Source of the DNA: a virus
Strand: one strand, 5' to 3'
Virus record (IMG/VR): IMGVR_UViG_3300030117_001852
Location: 3,097 to 29,646 of that record
DNA: 26,550 nt
The translations under genes were made by a program, and so were the position numbers. Below, piece after piece: positions 4,211 through 21,362 of the stretch; the first letter of the stretch is position 1, and every line of letters begins with the position of its first letter. A model generated the notes under the pieces. It did no database searches and had not been told where the DNA came from. It was given only the letters and a program-made list of their open reading frames with translations.

Positions 4211-4690
4211 CTAGTTGCAAACGTAGTTAATGCAGAACGACATATCGCCTTCAGTTCCACCAGCAGCAGCCATAGTAGCTGCTATGTAGTAGTAACCTCC
4301 AGGATCTGAACTTGCTCCAGCCATTTCCCACATTGCTTTTCCAGCAGTGTTGATGTCAGCAGCTTCGTGTCTTACATCTGCAATTGCACCAGCATCAGCT
4401 ACTGTGCTTGCAAAGTAATCTTCGTCAACTACTGTTCCGTCACTTTGATAGATACCAACATTGAAAGTACATGAACCTCCAAGTGTGTCTGATCCGATCC
4501 AGATTTGTGGAACGACAGCGTTACTTGGAATTGGTGCAAGCATAACAATATCATTATCGTCACTATCACCAGCTGCTAAAACAATAGTTCCTTGAGCTAC
4601 ACGCATTACGCCATGTAGAAGGCTACTGTCATTAAGCACTGGAGGAGTAGCTTCATAATTTGCTACTAGATCTGAGTTTTTAGTTCCCAT
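4211..4690 (-). CDS. Putative capsid decoration/head protein, 159 aa
   Basis: 159 residues, acidic, beta-rich and full of Gly, Ala, Ser and Asp, with no basic patches, signal peptide or membrane segment. It starts 18 bases after the capsid stop, so it is expressed with the capsid protein. Small beta proteins directly behind the capsid gene are commonly head decoration or fibre-like head proteins. I do not recognise a defined family; the call rests on position, size and composition. Base composition is more G+C rich than the tail genes around it, as is the capsid gene, in keeping with codon selection for high expression. Confidence 0.6.
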   Translation of the reverse strand: MGTKNSDLVANYEATPPVLNDSSLLHGVMRVAQGTIVLAAGDSDDNDIVMLAPIPSNAVVPQIWIGSDTLGGSCTFNVGIYQSDGTVVDEDYFASTVADAGAIADVRHEAADINTAGKAMWEMAGASSDPGGYYYIAATMAAAGGTEGDMSFCINYVCN

Positions 4691-4708
4691 AATTTATTCT
4701 CCTATTGA

Positions 4709-5584
4709 TTATGCTTCATGACACGGAATTTGCACTACTTTTTCTTCTTGCATACGAACTGCGCCCAAACTCATACAGTAATAAACCTGTGTACTGTAAG
4801 ACTTGTCAGCTCTTTCAGAAATTTTTGCAGAAATATCCTTACCGATACCTAATTTAATAGCATCTTCAGTATATGCAAAAACTAATCTGTCAGTAGTATT
4901 AGTTGCATCCATGTTAAGTCTTGTTGACATTATAAATTCAAATCCAAGGAAGGAATTTACAGAACCTTCTGCCAATGCTTTTACAGTTGCAAAGTCAGAT
5001 GAAGTTACTTGTGTTGTTCCTAATAGATCTGATATTTGTTGTGGCCCGCAAACAATGTATCTCTTTAAAGATGGATCTACATCGTTATTATCTAGGATCT
5101 TCTTCGCAGACAAAAGTTTAGCAATTGTCAAACCATCTGATTGGTCTGAAGTTGCAGTCTTTTGACTTGAAGGTAAAGGCGTAGATGAACCACCAGCTAC
5201 ACCAGTTGATGCAGACGCGTTGAATGCTGTTATAATAACATCATCCATTGCTCTATTCATCGCTGCTGCCGCTGCTTTAGCGTAAGAACTTGTAGGATCC
5301 ACAAGCATTCTAACCTTGTCAACATCGTCAACAAGATCAGCCCACTCGTAATCTGCCAAGCTCAATCTTCTCCGTGAGTGGGGAGTATCAATTTGTGGTG
5401 TATCGCCATGCCTGCTAGTTCTTAATTGTGCAGCAGTAACTCCGACTTGATCGAAGAATGCGTTTTTACCATTGATATTTTCCACATCCACAGAACCTCT
5501 AAGTTTACTTCCCATTTGTTGAGAAAGCATAGATACGTTAGAACTATACTGTTCAACAAAAGAAGTAGTAATTTGAATAGACAT
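4709..5584 (-). CDS. Major capsid protein
   Basis: 291 residues, lying between scaffold and tail genes. The opening (MSIQITTSFVEQYSSNVSML), then QLRTSRHGDTPQIDTPHSRR, a WADLVDDVDKVRMLVDP helix and the late AYTEDAIKLGIGKDISAKIS are typical of the HK97-fold capsid family found with 'head-to-tail connecting' portals in marine podoviruses. A strong Shine-Dalgarno (AGGAGAATAGT) precedes the ATG. A long structured leader lies upstream. No protease gene is nearby and the N-terminus begins directly with capsid-like sequence, so assembly probably uses the separate scaffold protein without a processed delta domain. Confidence 0.92.
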   Translation of the reverse strand: MSIQITTSFVEQYSSNVSMLSQQMGSKLRGSVDVENINGKNAFFDQVGVTAAQLRTSRHGDTPQIDTPHSRRRLSLADYEWADLVDDVDKVRMLVDPTSSYAKAAAAAMNRAMDDVIITAFNASASTGVAGGSSTPLPSSQKTATSDQSDGLTIAKLLSAKKILDNNDVDPSLKRYIVCGPQQISDLLGTTQVTSSDFATVKALAEGSVNSFLGFEFIMSTRLNMDATNTTDRLVFAYTEDAIKLGIGKDISAKISERADKSYSTQVYYCMSLGAVRMQEEKVVQIPCHEA

Positions 5585-13424: not shown

Positions 13425-13708
13425 TAAAAAGTAATCTCCGTAACTTCTTGTATCCAGGCTCCAGGAATAGTGTTTGTGTTACCAACTGTTAAAGATCCAT
13501 CCTCTGCATCAACAGAGTAATCAGCAAAAATAGTAATTAAATTTTTAGTGTGTATTAATTTATGACCCTTAGATATGCAGACAGCTGGCTTTAACTTCTT
13601 TGCCTTATCAATACTCATCCAGGAATTATCAGCCAACGTGTCAAACCATTTAACCTCCACAAACGGATAATCATCAATGGTTCCAGATAATTTTTTTTTA
13701 TTAGTCAT
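13424..13708 (-). CDS. Hypothetical protein, 94 aa, early minus-strand operon
   Basis: 94 residues with a beta-rich pattern: FVEVKWFDTLADNSWMSIDK, then K-P-A-V-C-I-S-K-G, and IPGAWIQEVTEITF at the end. Short proteins of the form 'V-x-W-x-D-x-x...W-x-x-I-D...P-x-x-x-x-S-x-G' are frequent in phage early regions and usually carry no assigned role. It overlaps the Cro-like gene by eight bases and the coiled-coil gene by one. No membrane segment or signal peptide. Confidence 0.6.
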   Translation of the reverse strand: MTNKKKLSGTIDDYPFVEVKWFDTLADNSWMSIDKAKKLKPAVCISKGHKLIHTKNLITIFADYSVDAEDGSLTVGNTNTIPGAWIQEVTEITF

Positions 13709-13898
13709 AAAAACTTTGTGGAGTAACCTTACCTTTTGTTTTTTCTTTGATAATTTTCATCCAGTTTCGGCCTGGTATTCTGGATCCTTTGCACCATCTA
13801 AAGGTAGTAGTAGCTGAAGAAGCTCCAGTAATTCCTATTAGATCTGCTAGTTTTTTGTATGATAAACCTTTATCTATTCTAAATTTTTCTAATCCCAT
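13701..13898 (-). CDS. Cro-like HTH regulator, 65 aa
   Basis: 65 residues, one domain: KGLSYKKLADLIGITGASSA then T-T-T-F-R-W-C-K-G-S-R-I-P-G reads as the helix-turn-helix of the Cro/C1 fold, ending with a short helix. It is the first gene of the minus-strand (lytic) operon and is divergent from the repressor-like gene at 14059, the classical Cro/CI arrangement. A palindromic site (13922-13937) lies 24 bases before its ATG, so it is probably controlled by, or controls, that operator. Role as lytic-side regulator is inferred from size and context. Confidence 0.7.
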   Translation of the reverse strand: MGLEKFRIDKGLSYKKLADLIGITGASSATTTFRWCKGSRIPGRNWMKIIKEKTKGKVTPQSFYD

Positions 13899-13921
13899 GT
13901 GTTGTCAGTATGGAAAAAAAA

Positions 13922-13937
13922 CCTTATTGGCAATAGG
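13922..13937. promoter_or_regulatory. Operator-like palindrome TATTG-G-CAATA (site A1)
   Basis: CCTTATTGGCAATAGG contains TATTG and CAATA as inverted arms around one G. The reverse strand reads TTGCCAATAAGG, a 12-base string that recurs exactly at 14819-14830 in front of the nuclease gene. It sits just upstream of the Cro-like gene. A run of eight T residues on the minus transcript separates it from the start. Binding by one of the HTH proteins encoded on either side is inferred. Confidence 0.5.
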
Positions 13938-14058
13938 CTTAACCATATATGTTGTGTTTATGCCCGACTATATCCACAACCTACATAAGTTGTATAATAA
14001 TATAACCAGATAAATTAATTAATTGACAGATTTTGTTATTGATACTACCTTTGCCATT
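13938..14058. promoter_or_regulatory. Divergent control region between Cro-like and repressor-like genes
   Basis: AT-rich, gene-free. On the plus strand TTGACA (14023-14028) with TACCTT 17 bases later is a reasonable promoter for the repressor-like gene; transcription would start at about 14058, next to the ATG at 14059, so that mRNA could be leaderless. On the minus strand TATATG/TATTAT-like hexamers exist without a convincing -35. The plain TTAATTAATT before the -35 may act as an UP-like element. Confidence 0.45.
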
Positions 14059-14769
14059 ATGACAAAAACTGATAATGTAACTTCTATAAAAAAAAATACC
14101 GAAACAACTATTAAACCTAGAGATATGAATTTTTTAAAAGAAAAAATAACTCAAGTTGGAATATCTCAAAAGGAATTAGCAAATAAATTACATAAAAACA
14201 TTGTTACTGTTAATAGATGGGTAAATGAGGAAAGGCAAATTACAGCTGAAAATGCAATTGAGATTGCTAAAATATTAAAATGTGACCCAGCTGCTATATT
14301 ATTTCCACCAAAAAAATTAAATAAAATTACTTTAAAAAATTATACCGATGATAGTTACATGGTTAAAGATATGGATAAAAGATTTTGGCAGCAAATAGTT
14401 ATTCCTAATGGTTATGCTTCAGAGGGAACATTTCCAGTAAGATATTATAAAATTGGTAGCCAGCATCATAATCAAATACATTTATTTGAAAGATTAAAAA
14501 TTAATGGCCATTACGAAGGTTTTCATGAAGATAGCATAAATAAGATTTGCTATTTAGAACCAACGGCAAAAAAAGCAAAAGAAGGATGCAAACCAATTAT
14601 AGCTTTAGTTAAAATAAATGAAAGCAAATCAAACTACGCAATAGATTTACTTCATGTAAAAACTGAAACGCCTATAAATGAATTATCAATTGGAATTGAT
14701 CCAAGTTGGGTTAAAATTTGTGCGCCTTTAAAAATGACTTTTTTCGAAAAATATAATTCAAATATTTAG
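14059..14769 (+). CDS. HTH repressor-like regulator
   Basis: 236 residues from ATG 14059; ATG 14128 (MNFLKEKITQVG) is an alternative, and the upstream TTG at 14023 is rejected because it is part of the -35 box. The HTH (ISQKELANKLHKNIVTVNRW then V-N-E-E-R-Q-I-T-A-E-N-A) is XRE/C1-type. The C-terminal 150 residues are beta-rich but show no Ser-Lys dyad or G-D-S-M motif of the S24 (LexA/CI) peptidases, so RecA-stimulated self-cleavage is not supported. It faces the Cro-like gene and heads the plus-strand operon leading to recombination and integrase genes, which fits a lysogeny repressor. Confidence 0.75.
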   Translation: MTKTDNVTSIKKNTETTIKPRDMNFLKEKITQVGISQKELANKLHKNIVTVNRWVNEERQITAENAIEIAKILKCDPAAILFPPKKLNKITLKNYTDDSYMVKDMDKRFWQQIVIPNGYASEGTFPVRYYKIGSQHHNQIHLFERLKINGHYEGFHEDSINKICYLEPTAKKAKEGCKPIIALVKINESKSNYAIDLLHVKTETPINELSIGIDPSWVKICAPLKMTFFEKYNSNI

Positions 14770-14804: not shown

Positions 14805-14860
14805 TTTTGGTATAATATTTGCCAATAAGGAAAATTATGTTTACCAATTGTACTAATTAA
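14805..14860 (+). promoter_or_regulatory. Extended -10 promoter with operator A2 and a 7-codon leader frame
   Basis: TGGTATAAT (14808-14816) is a perfect extended -10 element without a good -35. The operator string TTGCCAATAAGG (14819-14830) follows immediately and covers the expected start point, so repression by an HTH protein is likely. Its last bases, AAGGA, also form a Shine-Dalgarno for a minimal frame at 14837-14860 (MFTNCTN and stop), whereas the nuclease ATG at 14877 has no Shine-Dalgarno of its own. The leader frame may be chance. Confidence 0.5.
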
Positions 14861-14876
14861 GTATTTAATTTGTATT

Positions 14877-15839
14877 ATGATTACCAAAGACGCAGCAGCA
14901 GCAAAAAAAATAACAGACAATTGGCTTGAAAATATAAAAGATCTACCAGATTGGGTAGAAATTTATAAATTAAATCATTGGTCGCCATCACAATTAAATT
15001 CAATGGATTGTTTATGGAGCTATAAATATTTGTACTTATCTCAAGAGGAAAGAAGAAAACTTCCAATCAATTCTAAAATGTTTGCTGGTGTTTGCATCGG
15101 AGATTTAGCTCAATTAGTGTTTGGTGATTTTTTGTGGCAGCATAAAACTGGAGAAGGATTAATTAAAAAAGAAATTCCTCCTCAAAGAAAAGTATTTGAT
15201 AAAATTTTAGATAAATTTAATTTATATGAGCCAGCAGATGATACAGACAAGGCTCAACATAATGTTAATAGATTAGGATTAGCAAAAGCATTTTTAACAC
15301 TAAAAAAAGGTTTAAGAGAAATTAATTTAAAATCTCCAGTGGAATGTGAAAGATCTGTATCTTTATTTTTACAAGATTGCGTTCTTCCAACAATAGGTAG
15401 AATTGATGTGGAAGATAAAAATTCATTTATAGAAATTAAAACAAAGTGGAAGAAAAAAAATAGACCCAAAAAAGATGGTACATCAACTTATTCATTACCT
15501 AAAATAGATGATGGTTATTTAGGAATGGAAGATCATTTGGCCCAGGTAGCATTTTACTATTTTGCTAACCAGGAAAAAAAGAAACCATATTTATTTGTAA
15601 TGAATGAAGAAAATTACAATATTTTTACTTCAGATAATTGCGATGGGATGAAACCAGAAAATTTAAAAAGATTATTAAACAAATTAACTTTAGTAGCAAA
15701 AAGACGTGAAAGAATTATGAACAATCATGCTGGTAAAAACACCTGGCATCAAGATATAGCTCCAGATTTTGACCATTTTTTTTGGAAAAACATGGGAGAG
15801 CATAAAGATATTGCTATGAAATTATGGGGTTTACAGTGA
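14877..15839 (+). CDS. PD-(D/E)XK (RecB-type) exonuclease
   Basis: 320 residues. The core motif is G-R-I-D-V (Asp177), then IEIKTK (Glu186, Lys188) and a HLAQVAFYY helix (Gln223, Tyr227), the D-(E)xK-QxxxY layout of RecB-family nucleases such as phage exonucleases and Cas4. The N-terminal part has a W-S-P-S-Q-L-N-S segment typical of PD-(D/E)XK proteins that start with a SxL-x-x-Y/F motif. It lies two genes before an annealing-type protein and three before an SSB-like protein, so its likely job is 5'-end resection in phage recombination. The start lacks a Shine-Dalgarno, so it may be coupled to the leader. Confidence 0.85.
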   Translation: MITKDAAAAKKITDNWLENIKDLPDWVEIYKLNHWSPSQLNSMDCLWSYKYLYLSQEERRKLPINSKMFAGVCIGDLAQLVFGDFLWQHKTGEGLIKKEIPPQRKVFDKILDKFNLYEPADDTDKAQHNVNRLGLAKAFLTLKKGLREINLKSPVECERSVSLFLQDCVLPTIGRIDVEDKNSFIEIKTKWKKKNRPKKDGTSTYSLPKIDDGYLGMEDHLAQVAFYYFANQEKKKPYLFVMNEENYNIFTSDNCDGMKPENLKRLLNKLTLVAKRRERIMNNHAGKNTWHQDIAPDFDHFFWKNMGEHKDIAMKLWGLQ

Positions 15840-17000: not shown

Positions 17001-17219
17001 ATGCAGCAATATGGTTTAACTGAAAAGCAATTAAAACTTTTTAAGTTTATAAAAAACTATATTACAAAAAATAAAATATCGCCATCTTACGAAGAAATGA
17101 AGGTGGCGATAGGATTAAAATCTAAATGCAGTATTCAAAGGAAAATAGAACAGTTACAAGATAGAGGATGGCTAACAAAATTACACGGAAAATCACGCAG
17201 CATAAAAATTCTAAAATGA
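17001..17219 (+). CDS. LexA-type winged-HTH protein (DNA-binding domain only), 72 aa
   Basis: 72 residues that match the LexA N-terminal domain almost end to end: LTEKQLKLFKFIKNYITKNK, ISPSYEEMKVAIGLKSKCSI (recognition helix) and LQDRGWLTKLHGKSRSIKIL (wing). The C-terminal peptidase and dimerisation domain of LexA is absent, so the protein cannot self-cleave. It may compete with host LexA for SOS operators or regulate phage promoters such as the duplicated ones at 17.9 and 18.7 kb. Its TGA overlaps the DUF3310 gene's ATG. A truncated LexA remnant is the alternative, but clean ends argue for a genuine small regulator. Confidence 0.8.
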   Translation: MQQYGLTEKQLKLFKFIKNYITKNKISPSYEEMKVAIGLKSKCSIQRKIEQLQDRGWLTKLHGKSRSIKILK

Positions 17220-17828: not shown

Positions 17829-17888
17829 TTTATAACTATTCTAAACTAATTAATTTTAGTAATACCCCCGCTCCGCCTAAATAAACTT

Positions 17889-17959
17889 ACCAGATTGGTA
17901 AAAATATTTCTTGATATGGGTTGACTTATGCCAAATTGGCAACTATATATATTATATGG
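17889..17959 (+). promoter_or_regulatory. Promoter-operator block, copy 1
   Basis: Block starts with ACCAGATTGGT, continues through TGATATGGG to TTGACT (-35, 17921-17926), a 17-base spacer holding the perfect palindrome TGCCAAATTGGCA (17929-17941), TATATA (-10, 17944-17949) and an ATG (17956) exactly where transcription should start. An operator between -35 and -10 predicts tight repression. The mRNA would be leaderless. The whole block recurs with about 85 percent identity at 18655-18724. Confidence 0.7.
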
Positions 17960-18117
17960 TAAAAAACTTCAAAAGATACAAGTTCGCTACCTTCTCTGCT
18001 TTAGAGAAATACTTCACAAAAGTTATCCTTCCACAAAAAAATAAATCTTCAAAAGTTATCGGCAAGGTTTTGCTTGTGTGGGATAAAAAATCAAAAACAA
18101 ATAAGGAGGCTGCATAA
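17956..18117 (+). CDS. Small basic protein, 53 aa, leaderless, C-terminal KEAA
   Basis: 53 residues, very basic (MVKNFKRYKFATFSALEKYF at the start). ATG 17956 is chosen over the in-frame TTG at 17911 because the latter lies upstream of the -35 box and would require transcription through the promoter. There is no Shine-Dalgarno, in keeping with a leaderless message. The last codons AAG GAG GCT GCA form both the Lys-Glu-Ala-Ala tail and the AAGGAGG Shine-Dalgarno of the next gene. No family recognised; pI and size suggest a nucleic-acid or ribosome binder. Confidence 0.6.
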   Translation: MVKNFKRYKFATFSALEKYFTKVILPQKNKSSKVIGKVLLVWDKKSKTNKEAA

Positions 18118-18648
18118 ATGAGAAAACTTACTAACGCTGCGCAAGTTGCTAAATTGATAAAGCAACAAGCCAAAGAACTTGGTTTAAAGGTTACAGCAAA
18201 ATCTCAAAACTTTTCAATGGGTAATTCAGTTTCAGTTCATATTTTATCTGGAACTGATGCAGCTGTTGAACAGTTAAAAAAAGATACAGTGAAATATGAG
18301 TATGGTACTTTTGATGGCATGACCGACAGCTACCATGCTGATAATGTTAGAGAGGATATTCCTCAGACAAAATATTTAATGATTAATGATGATAGAGCAG
18401 AAAACATTATCAAAGATAATCTAGATCAAACTGAGAAAAGATTTTACGAACATAGATTTACTTACAATAATGTTAATTGCACTTCTTACCAATGGTTACA
18501 AAAATTAAAAGAGGAAGCTGAAGAAGATTGGCAAAATGTTTTAAAAACTTTACTCCAGGATTTCAATGCTGCTGGAGCAAATTCAGTTACAACTCAATTA
18601 AATGGTTTTGTTTTTCAAATAACTAAAAATAGAAAGGAGGCAGCATAA
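18118..18648 (+). CDS. LPD29-like protein, 176 aa
   Basis: 176 residues. The start (NAAQVAKLIKQQAKELGLKV then T-A-K-S-Q-N-F-S-M-G-N-S-V-S-V-H) followed by a YGTFDGMTDSYHAD segment resembles large polyvalent-protein-associated domain 29, in which a 'A-K-L-I-R-x-x-L-K', a small beta unit and an F-D-G-M-x-D motif occur in that order. LPD domains are found in phage and plasmid proteins that enter or act early in a cell; biochemical function is unknown. The second half is helical. Good Shine-Dalgarno (AAGGAGG, 8 bases before ATG). It ends in NRKEAA, and the Shine-Dalgarno encoded there has no gene behind it. Confidence 0.6.
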   Translation: MRKLTNAAQVAKLIKQQAKELGLKVTAKSQNFSMGNSVSVHILSGTDAAVEQLKKDTVKYEYGTFDGMTDSYHADNVREDIPQTKYLMINDDRAENIIKDNLDQTEKRFYEHRFTYNNVNCTSYQWLQKLKEEAEEDWQNVLKTLLQDFNAAGANSVTTQLNGFVFQITKNRKEAA

Positions 18649-18654
18649 TAAATA

Positions 18655-18724
18655 ACCAATCTGGTAAAAAAATATCTGATATGGGATTGACAATGCCAAA
18701 TTGGCAATTATATATATTGTATGG
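18655..18724 (+). promoter_or_regulatory. Promoter-operator block, copy 2
   Basis: ACCAATCTGGT (the exact reverse complement of the copy-1 edge), TGATATGGG, TTGACA (-35, 18687-18692), 16-base spacer with TGCCAAATTGGCA (18694-18706), TATATA (-10, 18709-18714) and an ATG at 18721 at the predicted start point. The -35 is the full consensus, so this copy may be stronger than copy 1. It lies directly behind the orphan Shine-Dalgarno of the 176-aa gene. Confidence 0.7.
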
Positions 18725-18759
18725 ATGATAAATTAAAAAATAAAAAAAAGGAGGCTGCA

Positions 18760-18960
18760 ATGACAAAATTTGCATTTAGATGGAGATCAAAACACTTTGT
18801 AGTTTTTGATAAAGATAATCCAATATTAAAAGACAATATAGAAGCTAAAGATTTGGATGATGCTTGGAAAATTTGGTTTGAAAAACATTTATTAGGCAAT
18901 ACAGACCAAATGAAAAATCTTAATCAAATTGAAATTATACAATTAAAGGAGGCAGTATAG
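18760..18960 (+). CDS. Small protein, 66 aa, C-terminal KEAV
   Basis: 66 residues from ATG 18760, which has AAGGAGG five bases in front. The frame is open from ATG 18721, giving 13 extra residues (MDDKLKNKKKEAA); these look like a remnant leader gene that has lost its stop, so either start may be used. The sequence FAFRWRSKHFVVFDKDNPIL and later LDDAWKIWFEKHLLG give a compact alpha/beta domain of no recognised family. The stop overlaps the GTG of the next gene (TAGTG). It is under promoter copy 2. Confidence 0.6.
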   Translation: MTKFAFRWRSKHFVVFDKDNPILKDNIEAKDLDDAWKIWFEKHLLGNTDQMKNLNQIEIIQLKEAV

Positions 18961-19205
18961 TGAACCACTTAACAAATGTTAATTTGTTCAAACAATTAGA
19001 TTACCCAAGTTGGAGTTTTAGTCAGTATGGAGATATGGGTATCACAATCAAAAAAGATAACGAAGTTACTAACTGGAAAAAATACATACAAGCCAATATG
19101 AATGCTGGTTTGTTTGGTACTGGTTATACAGTTGAGCCATACAAAAAAATAGATGGCATAAAAAAAACTGTTGTTAATAAATTTAACTTAAAGGAGGCTG
19201 CTTAA
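18960..19205 (+). CDS. Small protein, 81 aa, GTG start, C-terminal KEAA
   Basis: 81 residues, start GTG 18960 with AAGGAGG seven bases upstream, overlapping the previous stop by one base. Aromatic-rich (LDYPSWSFSQYGDMGITIKK, then N-W-K-K-Y-I-Q-A-N-M-N-A-G-L-F-G-T-G). No family, signal peptide or membrane segment. The last codons again encode L-K-E-A-A and supply the Shine-Dalgarno for the following gene. Expression is coupled to its neighbours on both sides. Confidence 0.65.
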   Translation: MNHLTNVNLFKQLDYPSWSFSQYGDMGITIKKDNEVTNWKKYIQANMNAGLFGTGYTVEPYKKIDGIKKTVVNKFNLKEAA

Positions 19206-19402
19206 TGACTAAAGATAATACTTATGATGATAAAACTGGATATTTAACAATGAATGATCCAGAAATTAATCCAGGTACAGCTCTTTATCCGTACACTAAA
19301 AAAGATAAACCAGAGGCGGGTAAAACTTATGCTTTAACTGGAACCAAAGATGACAAGTGTATTTTAAATGGCAACACATGGAAGGAAAGCGAGGTTAAAT
19401 AA
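19205..19402 (+). CDS. Small acidic/neutral protein, 65 aa
   Basis: 65 residues, ATG 19205 sharing one base with the previous stop and AAGGAGG seven bases upstream. Rich in Thr, Lys, Asp and Gly with two repeats of a T-G-x-K-D/T-G-Y style turn; probably a small beta protein. Unlike its neighbours it does not end in KEAA but in K-E-S-E-V-K, where the codons GAA AGC GAG G provide only a weak Shine-Dalgarno for the integrase one base after the stop. No function recognised. Confidence 0.6.
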   Translation: MTKDNTYDDKTGYLTMNDPEINPGTALYPYTKKDKPEAGKTYALTGTKDDKCILNGNTWKESEVK

Positions 19403-19403
19403 T

Positions 19404-20609
19404 ATGAAAGTTCAAGTTGTTACTGTTGATAGAGCTGGCGGTAAAAAATTAGTTGTCCAGGTAGTTTATAAAGTTAATGGTAAAATTAAAAAACAAAATA
19501 AAGAAGTTTTTGGATTAAATGAAAGAAGGAAAGCAGAAGCTCTTAGATCTAAATTACAAAATGCAGAAAAAATAGATGTAATAGATCAAAAAATAGATTT
19601 TGATTTTGCTTTTGAAGAATATTTTAAAGTTATAAATAAAGATCCAGATACAACATCTAAATATAAAGATATGCAGATTGCTTATATTAACAATCATGTA
19701 AGACCGCATATTAATAAACAATATTTATCAGACTATTTACTATCAGATTTTAAAGAAGTTACTTTAATTGGTATTAAAAATAGCAAATGTTTGCTTTGGG
19801 TTAAAAAAGATGGGTTCGGTAGTTATAAGAAAAAAAATGAAACCATAGGTAAAATTACTATTAGAGCTGCGGTATTAGAATTTAAAAAATTCGTAAATTT
19901 TTGTGCCAGCAGAAAATGGAAAATAGATTATTCTATTGCAAATTTTAAATTTGGAGCAAAATATTTTGCTGATTATAATAGTAAAATTAAGTGGATGCCT
20001 ACTACTCCAGAACTATTAGCTGTTGTAAATAAGGAACCAGATCTACAACTAAGAACTTTGTATAAAACAGCTGCTGAAACTGGTGCAAGATTAAATGAAT
20101 TGCTTGGTATTTGTTATGAAAGTGTGGATTTTGACCAGGGAGGTGTATTTTTAGACCACTCTATCAATGAAGAAAATACTTTTAGACCATACAAGGTAAA
20201 AACACAGAGAAGATTTGTTACAATTTCTGATGACTTATTAGATTTATTTGATATTTGGATGAAGGCTCAAATGTTTCCAATTACTCATAGAAATTTAACT
20301 TTTAAAAATCCAGATAGCAATCAAATGGAGAGAAGAACTTTTAAAAGAATGTTTAATATACCTATTCACGGAGCTAGAAAAAGAGTTAAAATTTCTGCAA
20401 AAAGATTGGGTATTCACTGGCCCAATGGTATGTCACCTTTTAGAAAATGGAGCATATCAAGAATGCAAGAGCTTAAAATTTTAACTGAAAAACAAATGGA
20501 TGATAGATTTGGTAACTCTAAAGATATTAGACAATCTAATTACATTAGAGATTTGAATTTGAATGAGAATGAAAGAAAAGCTGCTGTTAATCAACTAACC
20601 AAAGGATGA
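19404..20609 (+). CDS. int: Tyrosine-family integrase
   Basis: 401 residues from ATG 19404, two bases after the previous stop; an in-frame upstream ATG at 19368 is rejected because it lies inside the 65-aa gene. The catalytic domain shows TGARLNELLG with Arg229, a VKTQRRFVTIS beta segment with the expected Lys, SPFRKWS where HxxR is expected (Arg347, with Ser344 in place of His), a G-N-S-K-D-I-R-Q-S-N-Y stretch and the nucleophile Tyr380. N-terminal residues 1-60 are a basic arm-binding domain, 65-190 the core-binding helices. It integrates phage DNA at an att site, most likely in the tRNA-Pro gene 0.7 kb downstream. Confidence 0.9.
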   Translation: MKVQVVTVDRAGGKKLVVQVVYKVNGKIKKQNKEVFGLNERRKAEALRSKLQNAEKIDVIDQKIDFDFAFEEYFKVINKDPDTTSKYKDMQIAYINNHVRPHINKQYLSDYLLSDFKEVTLIGIKNSKCLLWVKKDGFGSYKKKNETIGKITIRAAVLEFKKFVNFCASRKWKIDYSIANFKFGAKYFADYNSKIKWMPTTPELLAVVNKEPDLQLRTLYKTAAETGARLNELLGICYESVDFDQGGVFLDHSINEENTFRPYKVKTQRRFVTISDDLLDLFDIWMKAQMFPITHRNLTFKNPDSNQMERRTFKRMFNIPIHGARKRVKISAKRLGIHWPNGMSPFRKWSISRMQELKILTEKQMDDRFGNSKDIRQSNYIRDLNLNENERKAAVNQLTKG

Positions 20610-20611
20610 TA

Positions 20612-21019
20612 ATGGCTAGAAAAAACACTGAAGAAGCTCTAAAAGAAAAAGCAAGACTATCAAAAATAGTTTACTTGCTTAGAGTTACTTCAAAAAAAAC
20701 CCAATCTTCAATTGCAAAAGCAATTGAAAAAACTTTCCAGCAAGTACAAAAATATGAAGGTGGAAAAAACAGTATGAGTTCACCCATGTTGTTTGCATTA
20801 GCAAAGGCTGAAGGATGGGATATTAATACTTTGTATTATGGAGATCCCGAAGAAATGATTAAGCAAATGCCGCTTGATTTTGACACTGGAAATGCGAAAA
20901 AACATTTTTTGAATGTAGACAGCCAGATAGAGGAAGAACGTAAATTACAAGCGCGCTATGAGCCTTTAATGCACCAATTAAACCAAGAGCTAGCTGGCCA
21001 AAATACTTTTAAAGGATAA
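20612..21019 (+). CDS. XRE-type HTH regulator downstream of integrase
   Basis: 135 residues from ATG 20612, with AAAGGA six bases in front; ATG 20606 overlaps the integrase stop and gives two more residues. The HTH is KTQSSIAKAIEKTFQQVQKY then E-G-G-K-N-S-M, the typical Q-S-x-x-Q-K-Y recognition helix of P22 C2/XRE proteins. The last 40 residues are a charged helix, perhaps for dimerisation. Being coupled to the integrase, it may act as an excision/integration regulator or as an alternative repressor. No peptidase domain. Confidence 0.75.
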   Translation: MARKNTEEALKEKARLSKIVYLLRVTSKKTQSSIAKAIEKTFQQVQKYEGGKNSMSSPMLFALAKAEGWDINTLYYGDPEEMIKQMPLDFDTGNAKKHFLNVDSQIEEERKLQARYEPLMHQLNQELAGQNTFKG

Positions 21020-21285: not shown

Positions 21286-21362
21286 CGGGGATTAGCGCAG
21301 CCTGGTAGCGCATCTGCTTTGGGAGCAGAGGGTCGCTGGTTCAAATCCAGCATCCCCGACCA
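21286..21362 (+). tRNA. tRNA-Pro (anticodon TGG), complete, CCA encoded
   Basis: A complete 77-base cloverleaf: acceptor CGGGGAT/ATCCCCG (7 bp, C1-G72 as usual for bacterial tRNA-Pro), D stem GCGC/GCGC, anticodon stem TCTGC/GCAGA with loop TTTGGGA (anticodon TGG, 21320-21322), T stem GCTGG/CCAGC with TTCAAAT loop, discriminator A and encoded CCA. It lies behind the integrase and TTACTCCC repeats and abuts the stop of the next, opposite-strand gene. It may be the attP copy of the host tRNA target, or a phage-carried tRNA reading CCA/CCT, common Pro codons here. Confidence 0.95.

Follow-up and report, generated by a model that had tools for sequence, protein, structure and literature searches.

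Introduction

In phage lambda, cI and cro are divergent, the PL promoter leads to int and carries the operators of the switch, and one operator covers the cI promoter. In phage P22, the ribbon-helix-helix repressor Arc has a palindromic operator between the -35 and -10 elements of Pant. The C1 operators of phage P1 are dispersed over its genome at 22 sites (PMC8546580). In N15 and PY54, repressor operators are found between cB or cI and cro and also at a distant promoter, which in N15 is that of repA, and the cI and cro genes of PY54 are leaderless (PMC4488713).

Here we analysed a window of 26,550 bases (the whole stretch of DNA under study), which is part of the 30,202-base IMG/VR virus record IMGVR_UViG_3300030117_001852. 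A sequence-only reading of this DNA had pointed to a promoter-operator block that occurs twice ahead of the integrase gene. Our comparisons indicate that the two blocks are very probably copies of one early promoter that resembles PL, was duplicated in this lineage and is repressed by the phage CI and/or Cro. That first reading had overlooked that each block holds a second operator, that similar sites occur in cI/cro control DNA, and that the promoter probably plays a PL-like part for the accessory-integrase operon.

The phage and its candidate regulators

The major capsid protein of the record is 60-66% identical over its full length to those of HTVC010P-type pelagiphages, which are ocean phages of SAR11, and its terminase is 58-60% identical to theirs. 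No integrase had been found in HTVC010P-related phages, and the group was called lytic (PMC6811365); an annotated integrase was likewise absent from the three isolates that we inspected, HTVC100P, HTVC203P and Lederberg. The present record does encode an integrase, together with a CI-like repressor and a protein resembling Cro, and it also has a tRNA-Pro gene, so most likely it belongs to the HTVC010P-type structural group as a temperate phage. The window's CI had no match in the phage collection, that is, no isolated phage with this CI was found, and the 176-residue accessory protein described below was found in none of the isolated phages. A search of 84,980 species genomes for hosts or prophages returned none with this cI and none with this integrase. 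A literature search combining pelagiphage, repressor and operator returned nothing on such a switch, as judged by title.

The CI-like repressor is encoded on the plus strand at 14059-14769 and matches HTH_3 (PF01381, E=1.1e-10) and PHROG 3, 'transcriptional repressor' (E=1.9e-12); the family search did not detect an S24 peptidase domain in it. The Cro-like HTH protein (13701-13898, minus strand, 65 residues) has no family match of its own and is 83-97% identical in close relatives. Two further HTH proteins are encoded near the operon studied here and are conserved in relatives that carry the blocks: one at 20612, and one at 17001-17219, a stand-alone LexA DNA-binding domain of 72 residues (PF01726, E=1e-13) that lacks the peptidase part. 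When the main regulators of the window were searched against families, the only domains returned were of the HTH_3 and LexA types.

A complete tRNA-Pro(TGG) gene at 21286-21362 follows closely on the integrase and an HTH gene and lies within the phage genome. It is possibly linked to an attachment site; a Fonsibacter phage that carries a tRNA-Leu offers a parallel for such a link (PMC6811365).

Two promoter-operator blocks

The two blocks, each of about 70 bp, lie at 17886-17958 and 18652-18723. They are 74% identical in an ungapped comparison and agree in 63 of 73 columns (86%) when five one-base gaps are allowed, in line with the 85 percent first estimated, and their alignment score of 48 compares with a maximum of 20 in 1000 shuffles. 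The elements originally described in each block, a TTGAC(T/A) -35, an identical perfect palindrome in the spacer, a -10 and an ATG close behind it, are all present. On the plus strand, the block 1 promoter (17921-17949) consists of TTGACT at 17921-17926, a 17-bp spacer and TATATA at 17944-17949, followed by ATG at 17956; the block 2 promoter (18687-18714) consists of TTGACA at 18687-18692, a 16-bp spacer and TATATA at 18709-18714, followed by ATG at 18721. In both blocks the ATG stands 6 bases past the TATATA, and a sigma-70 form is assumed for both promoters. The spacer operator of block 1 occupies 17927-17943, with the perfect 6+1+6 palindrome TGCCAAATTGGCA at 17929-17941, and that of block 2 occupies 18692-18708, with TGCCAAATTGGCA at 18694-18706. 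These are the only exact copies of TGCCAAATTGGCA in the 30.2-kb record.

Perfect 6+1+6 palindromes are at background frequency in the window (16 seen, 13.8 expected), and we rejected the idea that they are rare in themselves. Two perfect palindromes inside TTGAC-N16..18-TAT spacers, by contrast, are rare, arising in one case in total across 200 shuffles.

The first reading had also noted an ACCA...TGGT edge on each block. The edge is present, but it is not a mere edge: ACCAGATTGGT (17889-17899) is the exact reverse complement of ACCAATCTGGT (18655-18665), and we read the two elements as a second copy of the same operator type, one per block. We built a symmetric 17-base operator profile only from distinct 17-mers that occur in accessory blocks, those of the window and of four relatives; in essence it is TTRCC-N5-GGYAA. 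In a scan of the whole window the four block sites lead, with scores of 18.6-22.1. The upstream operator of block 1, CTTACCAGATTGGTAAA (17886-17902), has its centre 41 bp from that of the spacer operator; it is a training site and scores 22.05, the top of 26,534 positions; that of block 2, ATAACCAATCTGGTAAA (18652-18668), also a training site, is centred 40 bp from its spacer operator and scores 18.89.

An operator in the spacer could in principle be the target of an activator that switches the blocks on by MerR-like remodelling. MerR-family activators do bind between -35 and -10, but at promoters with long spacers of 19-20 bp, whereas the spacers here, of 17 and 16 bp, are near-optimal for an unaided promoter, and the candidate proteins match Cro/C1-type repressor families rather than MerR. 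We consider activation very improbable and a repressed promoter the better reading; the spacer operator is probably bound by a phage HTH protein.

Conservation and spacing of the operators in relatives

In relatives, the promoter geometry of block 1 is the same, and the spacer operator reads GCCAAATTGGC, ACCAAATTGGT (as in L134 and L137) or GCCAGATAGGT, with its centre always 21 bp before the ATG. The conservation check thus came out in favour of the palindrome, and its kept position between -35 and -10 supports the view of a duplicated promoter with an operator in its spacer. The upstream operator in relatives is again a TTRCC-N5-GGYAA-type site. The two operators of a block are 41 or 40 bp apart in the window's lineage and 31 bp apart in the group whose CI is 64-70% identical; the difference between 41 and 31 bp is due to a 10-bp insertion, which is one helical turn. 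Such a change would fit the requirement of two cooperating dimers on one face of the DNA. The architecture is not universal: in L140, a more distant relative, the homologue is preceded by promoter-like DNA that lacks the spacer palindrome.

The same comparison bears on an earlier suggestion that the two blocks are paired, with a repressor oligomer bridging them and looping out 765 bp. The identical spacer palindromes and the strong sites in both blocks would suit such a loop, and lambda CI is known to hold DNA in loops of about 2.3 kb (PMC5880393). However, the distance between block centres is 762, 765 or 1036 bp in different relatives, the complete operons of L137, L159, L167 and L172 have one block only, and a pair of operators, 40-41 bp apart, is already present within each block. 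Block-to-block looping is not supported, since the distance varies and several relatives are single-block, and we regard it as improbable; the proposed mechanism does not require it. A loop from the blocks to the cI region may form.

When unrelated phages were searched with the raw pattern TTGAC-N0..6-GCCAAATTGGC, many of the matches looked coding or due to chance. In one unrelated phage (L006, 54% GC), the reverse strand near 1200 has TTGACATTGCCAAATTGGCAACATATAAT, about 100 bp from an HTH repressor gene and with a second ACCAAATTGGT site close downstream. This is plausibly a spacer operator of independent origin but almost identical sequence.

Operator-like sites at the cI/cro switch

The four block sites lie 3.8-4.7 kb from the cI/cro switch. 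Outside the blocks, the best profile match in the window is TTTGCCAATAAGGAAAA at 14818-14834 (score 13.06), upstream of the recombination operon that starts at 14877, followed by TTTGCCATTATGACAAA at 14050-14066 (12.89), which lies over the cI start codon. Two more operator-like sites lie just upstream of the cro start at 13901-13934, scoring 9.53 (13901) and 11.35 (13918). Of the five non-training matches that score at least 9.5, four fall within control DNA of cI and cro that spans roughly 280 bp and makes up about 1% of the window. When the two control stretches were shuffled, the maxima seen in the real sequence were reached in 0.55% and 0.3% of the trials, and none of 2000 shuffles of the cI-cro stretch gave three matches of at least 9.5. 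The sites at the switch are weaker (9.5-13) than those in the blocks (18-22).

The fifth match, TCTACCAGATTGGGTAG (14942-14958, score 9.61), lies inside the start of gene 14877 and is kept as TTTACCAGAGTGGGTAG in several relatives. It may represent coding conservation or a further operator.

In relatives whose cI is 64-90% identical, matches again occur at the cI/cro control region, and the top matches outside the blocks are mostly the cI-start site and the cro site. In the 64-70% group, the cI-start site is of the GTTGCCATTATGGTAAA type, GTTGCCA(T/G)TATGGTAAA, with scores of 16-20, and the cro site ATAACCTTATTGGCAAT scores 14.3. The control regions of these relatives are homologous and are therefore not independent tests. 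Single matches of 13-17 also occur in genomes that lack this particular switch (14.9 in HTVC100P and 14.9 in Lederberg) and elsewhere in L138; the evidence is the concentration of matches in control DNA, not any single match. These sites point to CI as most likely the reader of the operators, with Cro as a possible second user, and the predicted CI/Cro target DNA is TTACCAGATTGGTAA and TATGCCAAATTGGCAAC.

The operator changes with the repressor in a distant phage

The distant phage L126/L127 has a homologue of the 18118 gene that is 61-62% identical. Its promoter, TTGACTATTAGCATTTAATGCTTATATTAT, has a different perfect palindrome, AGCATTTAATGCT, in the same spacer. The cI/cro control DNA of the L127 record has four AGCATTTAATGCT-like sites with at most three mismatches, at 1828, 1875, 2526 and 2557, against 0.33 expected, and none of 5000 shuffles reached four. 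The CI and Cro proteins of L127 are 27% and 35% identical to those of the window over the aligned parts. In this one divergent lineage pair, the operator word changes together with the repressor.

This change helps to weigh the proposal that the operators are read not by CI or Cro but by the LexA-type protein at 17001, the HTH protein at 20612 or a host factor. The genes of both phage proteins lie close to the operon, block-bearing relatives keep them, and the cI start of L127 also has a window-type palindrome, ATAACCATTATGGTTAT, so that one site class may have another reader. Against this, sites of the same type occur where cro and cI begin, as well as upstream of early recombination genes. 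A tblastn survey found no match to 17001 or 20612 in L127, yet the same arrangement is there with its own operator word. If a host factor were the reader, one would not expect the word to differ from phage to phage in step with CI. Another reader is thus improbable in our judgement, and CI, possibly with Cro, remains the preferred one.

In L126, the palindrome-bearing promoter is followed at 4503-5237 by an accessory gene whose product has a domain of the XF1762 family (E=2e-31) and matches Mom weakly; it is possibly a DNA-modification gene.

The accessory-integrase operon

The first gene behind block 1, ORF1 (17956-18117, plus strand, 53 residues), has a predicted ATG at about +1 of the transcript and no Shine-Dalgarno sequence. 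Its start and frame are conserved, and changes at third codon positions are in excess in the more distant relatives (6/5/14 in L137). Together with the ATG 6 bases past the -10, these features make a leaderless transcript likely. The gene order then leads into the integrase on the same strand, with starts that overlap or adjoin: an accessory gene for a 176-residue protein (18118-18648), a 13-codon mini-ORF, MDDKLKNKKKEAA (18721-18759), behind block 2, three small accessory genes (18760-18960, 18960-19205 and 19205-19402) and a tyrosine integrase (19404-20609; PF00589, E=1.1e-7; PHROG 1) in the same gene run. The 176-residue protein has a weak LPD29-like match (PF18847, E=0.022, below the curated cut-off; the best of seven homologues reaches 0.0044, and all seven are at E<=0.1), LPD29 being a domain from phage and plasmid conflict proteins (PMC5512222). 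Its structural model (pLDDT 88) had no PDB match at E<=0.001.

A linker, AAGGAGGC(A/T)G(C/T) with stop/start, precedes each of the three small genes. It occurs five times in the window, between 18105 and 19193, and on the plus strand in this operon only; because of the linker and its stop/start, many of the encoded proteins end in KEAA. Linker-joined accessory genes are also found in ten other genomes (L122, L123, L125, L130, L137, L141, L159, L167, L172 and L189), where different genes stand between the same linkers, and the gene content of the stretch differs strongly between relatives. Block 2 and the mini-ORF sit between two linkers; the mini-ORF, which in the window is in frame into the 18760 gene, has a stop codon at its end in L122. 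Block 2 is probably a later copy, since the four single-block relatives have complete operons without it, and it seems to have been carried as a cassette with a gene linker on either side. More tentatively, and with rather less than even confidence, we propose that a locked promoter heads a modular cassette array, in which the linker AAGGAGGCTGC with its stop/start would serve as ribosome site, translational coupler and exchange joint, and the second promoter would itself be a cassette. If so, genes could be swapped between the fixed first gene and the integrase, all of them silent in lysogeny.

Gene exchange also raises the idea that the repeats are kept mainly as a recombination substrate for gene swapping, with their promoter-operator features secondary. 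The strongly differing genes of the stretch would fit, as would the weakly Sak-like single-strand annealing protein that the phage encodes. However, this leaves the operator symmetry, the phasing and the match to the cI/cro region unexplained, and genes have been exchanged in the single-block relatives L137, L159 and L167 as well. We hold this idea to be extremely improbable and continue with the blocks as repressed, PL-like promoters.

Discussion

How might such a promoter work? A repressor dimer bound at the spacer operator, with the -35 on one side and the -10 on the other, would exclude RNA polymerase, and a second dimer on the upstream operator, three or four helical turns away on the same face, would probably bind cooperatively. 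The operon would be silent in the lysogen and switched on at infection or induction. Its transcript would begin with the leaderless 53-codon gene, continue through the exchangeable accessory genes and end with the integrase; because the operon reads through to the integrase, it would work like lambda PL/OL. Block 2 would give the distal genes and the integrase a start of their own under identical control. The matching sites at the switch suggest the master repressor as the protein that silences the integrase and the swappable genes in dormancy. Under this model, these genes should be off in the lysogen and active in an infection. The model also makes an exchangeable accessory region easy to find: its contents can be gathered by inspecting the DNA from the promoter block to the integrase.

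The likeness to lambda OL/OR lies in the divergent repressor and Cro genes, in a distant int-side early promoter that has the operators of the switch and in a site over the cI start. Unlike in lambda, the int-side promoter is duplicated and has two operators per copy, one of them in the spacer, and the CI has no detectable S24 domain. A palindromic operator centred in a promoter spacer is shared with P22 Arc and Pant, but Arc is a ribbon-helix-helix protein, whereas the candidates among the main regulators searched here are helix-turn-helix proteins only. As with N15 and PY54, operators occur both at the switch and at a distant promoter; those phages are plasmid prophages with a replication gene as the distant target, and the target here is an accessory-integrase operon. 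The many stoperators of mycobacteriophage L5 are asymmetric and lie outside promoters, whereas the sites in the blocks are symmetric and form part of promoters.

In P1, a single immunity repressor, C1, silences a number of distinct lytic or early promoters, each of which carries a copy of the same operator; the repressor here would act likewise. The sequence shares with such dispersed systems an HTH repressor gene, sites at the switch and sites at promoters outside it, and in the one lineage pair with L127 the operator changes with the repressor. The P1 operators are 17-bp and asymmetric, unlike the symmetric TTRCC-N5-GGYAA sites found here, which are paired and helically phased, and the phage most likely represents a temperate branch among the pelagiphages of HTVC010P type. 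Dispersed immunity operators are already known from P1 and N15; what this locus adds to them is an operator in the promoter spacer, a phased partner upstream and the duplication of the promoter.
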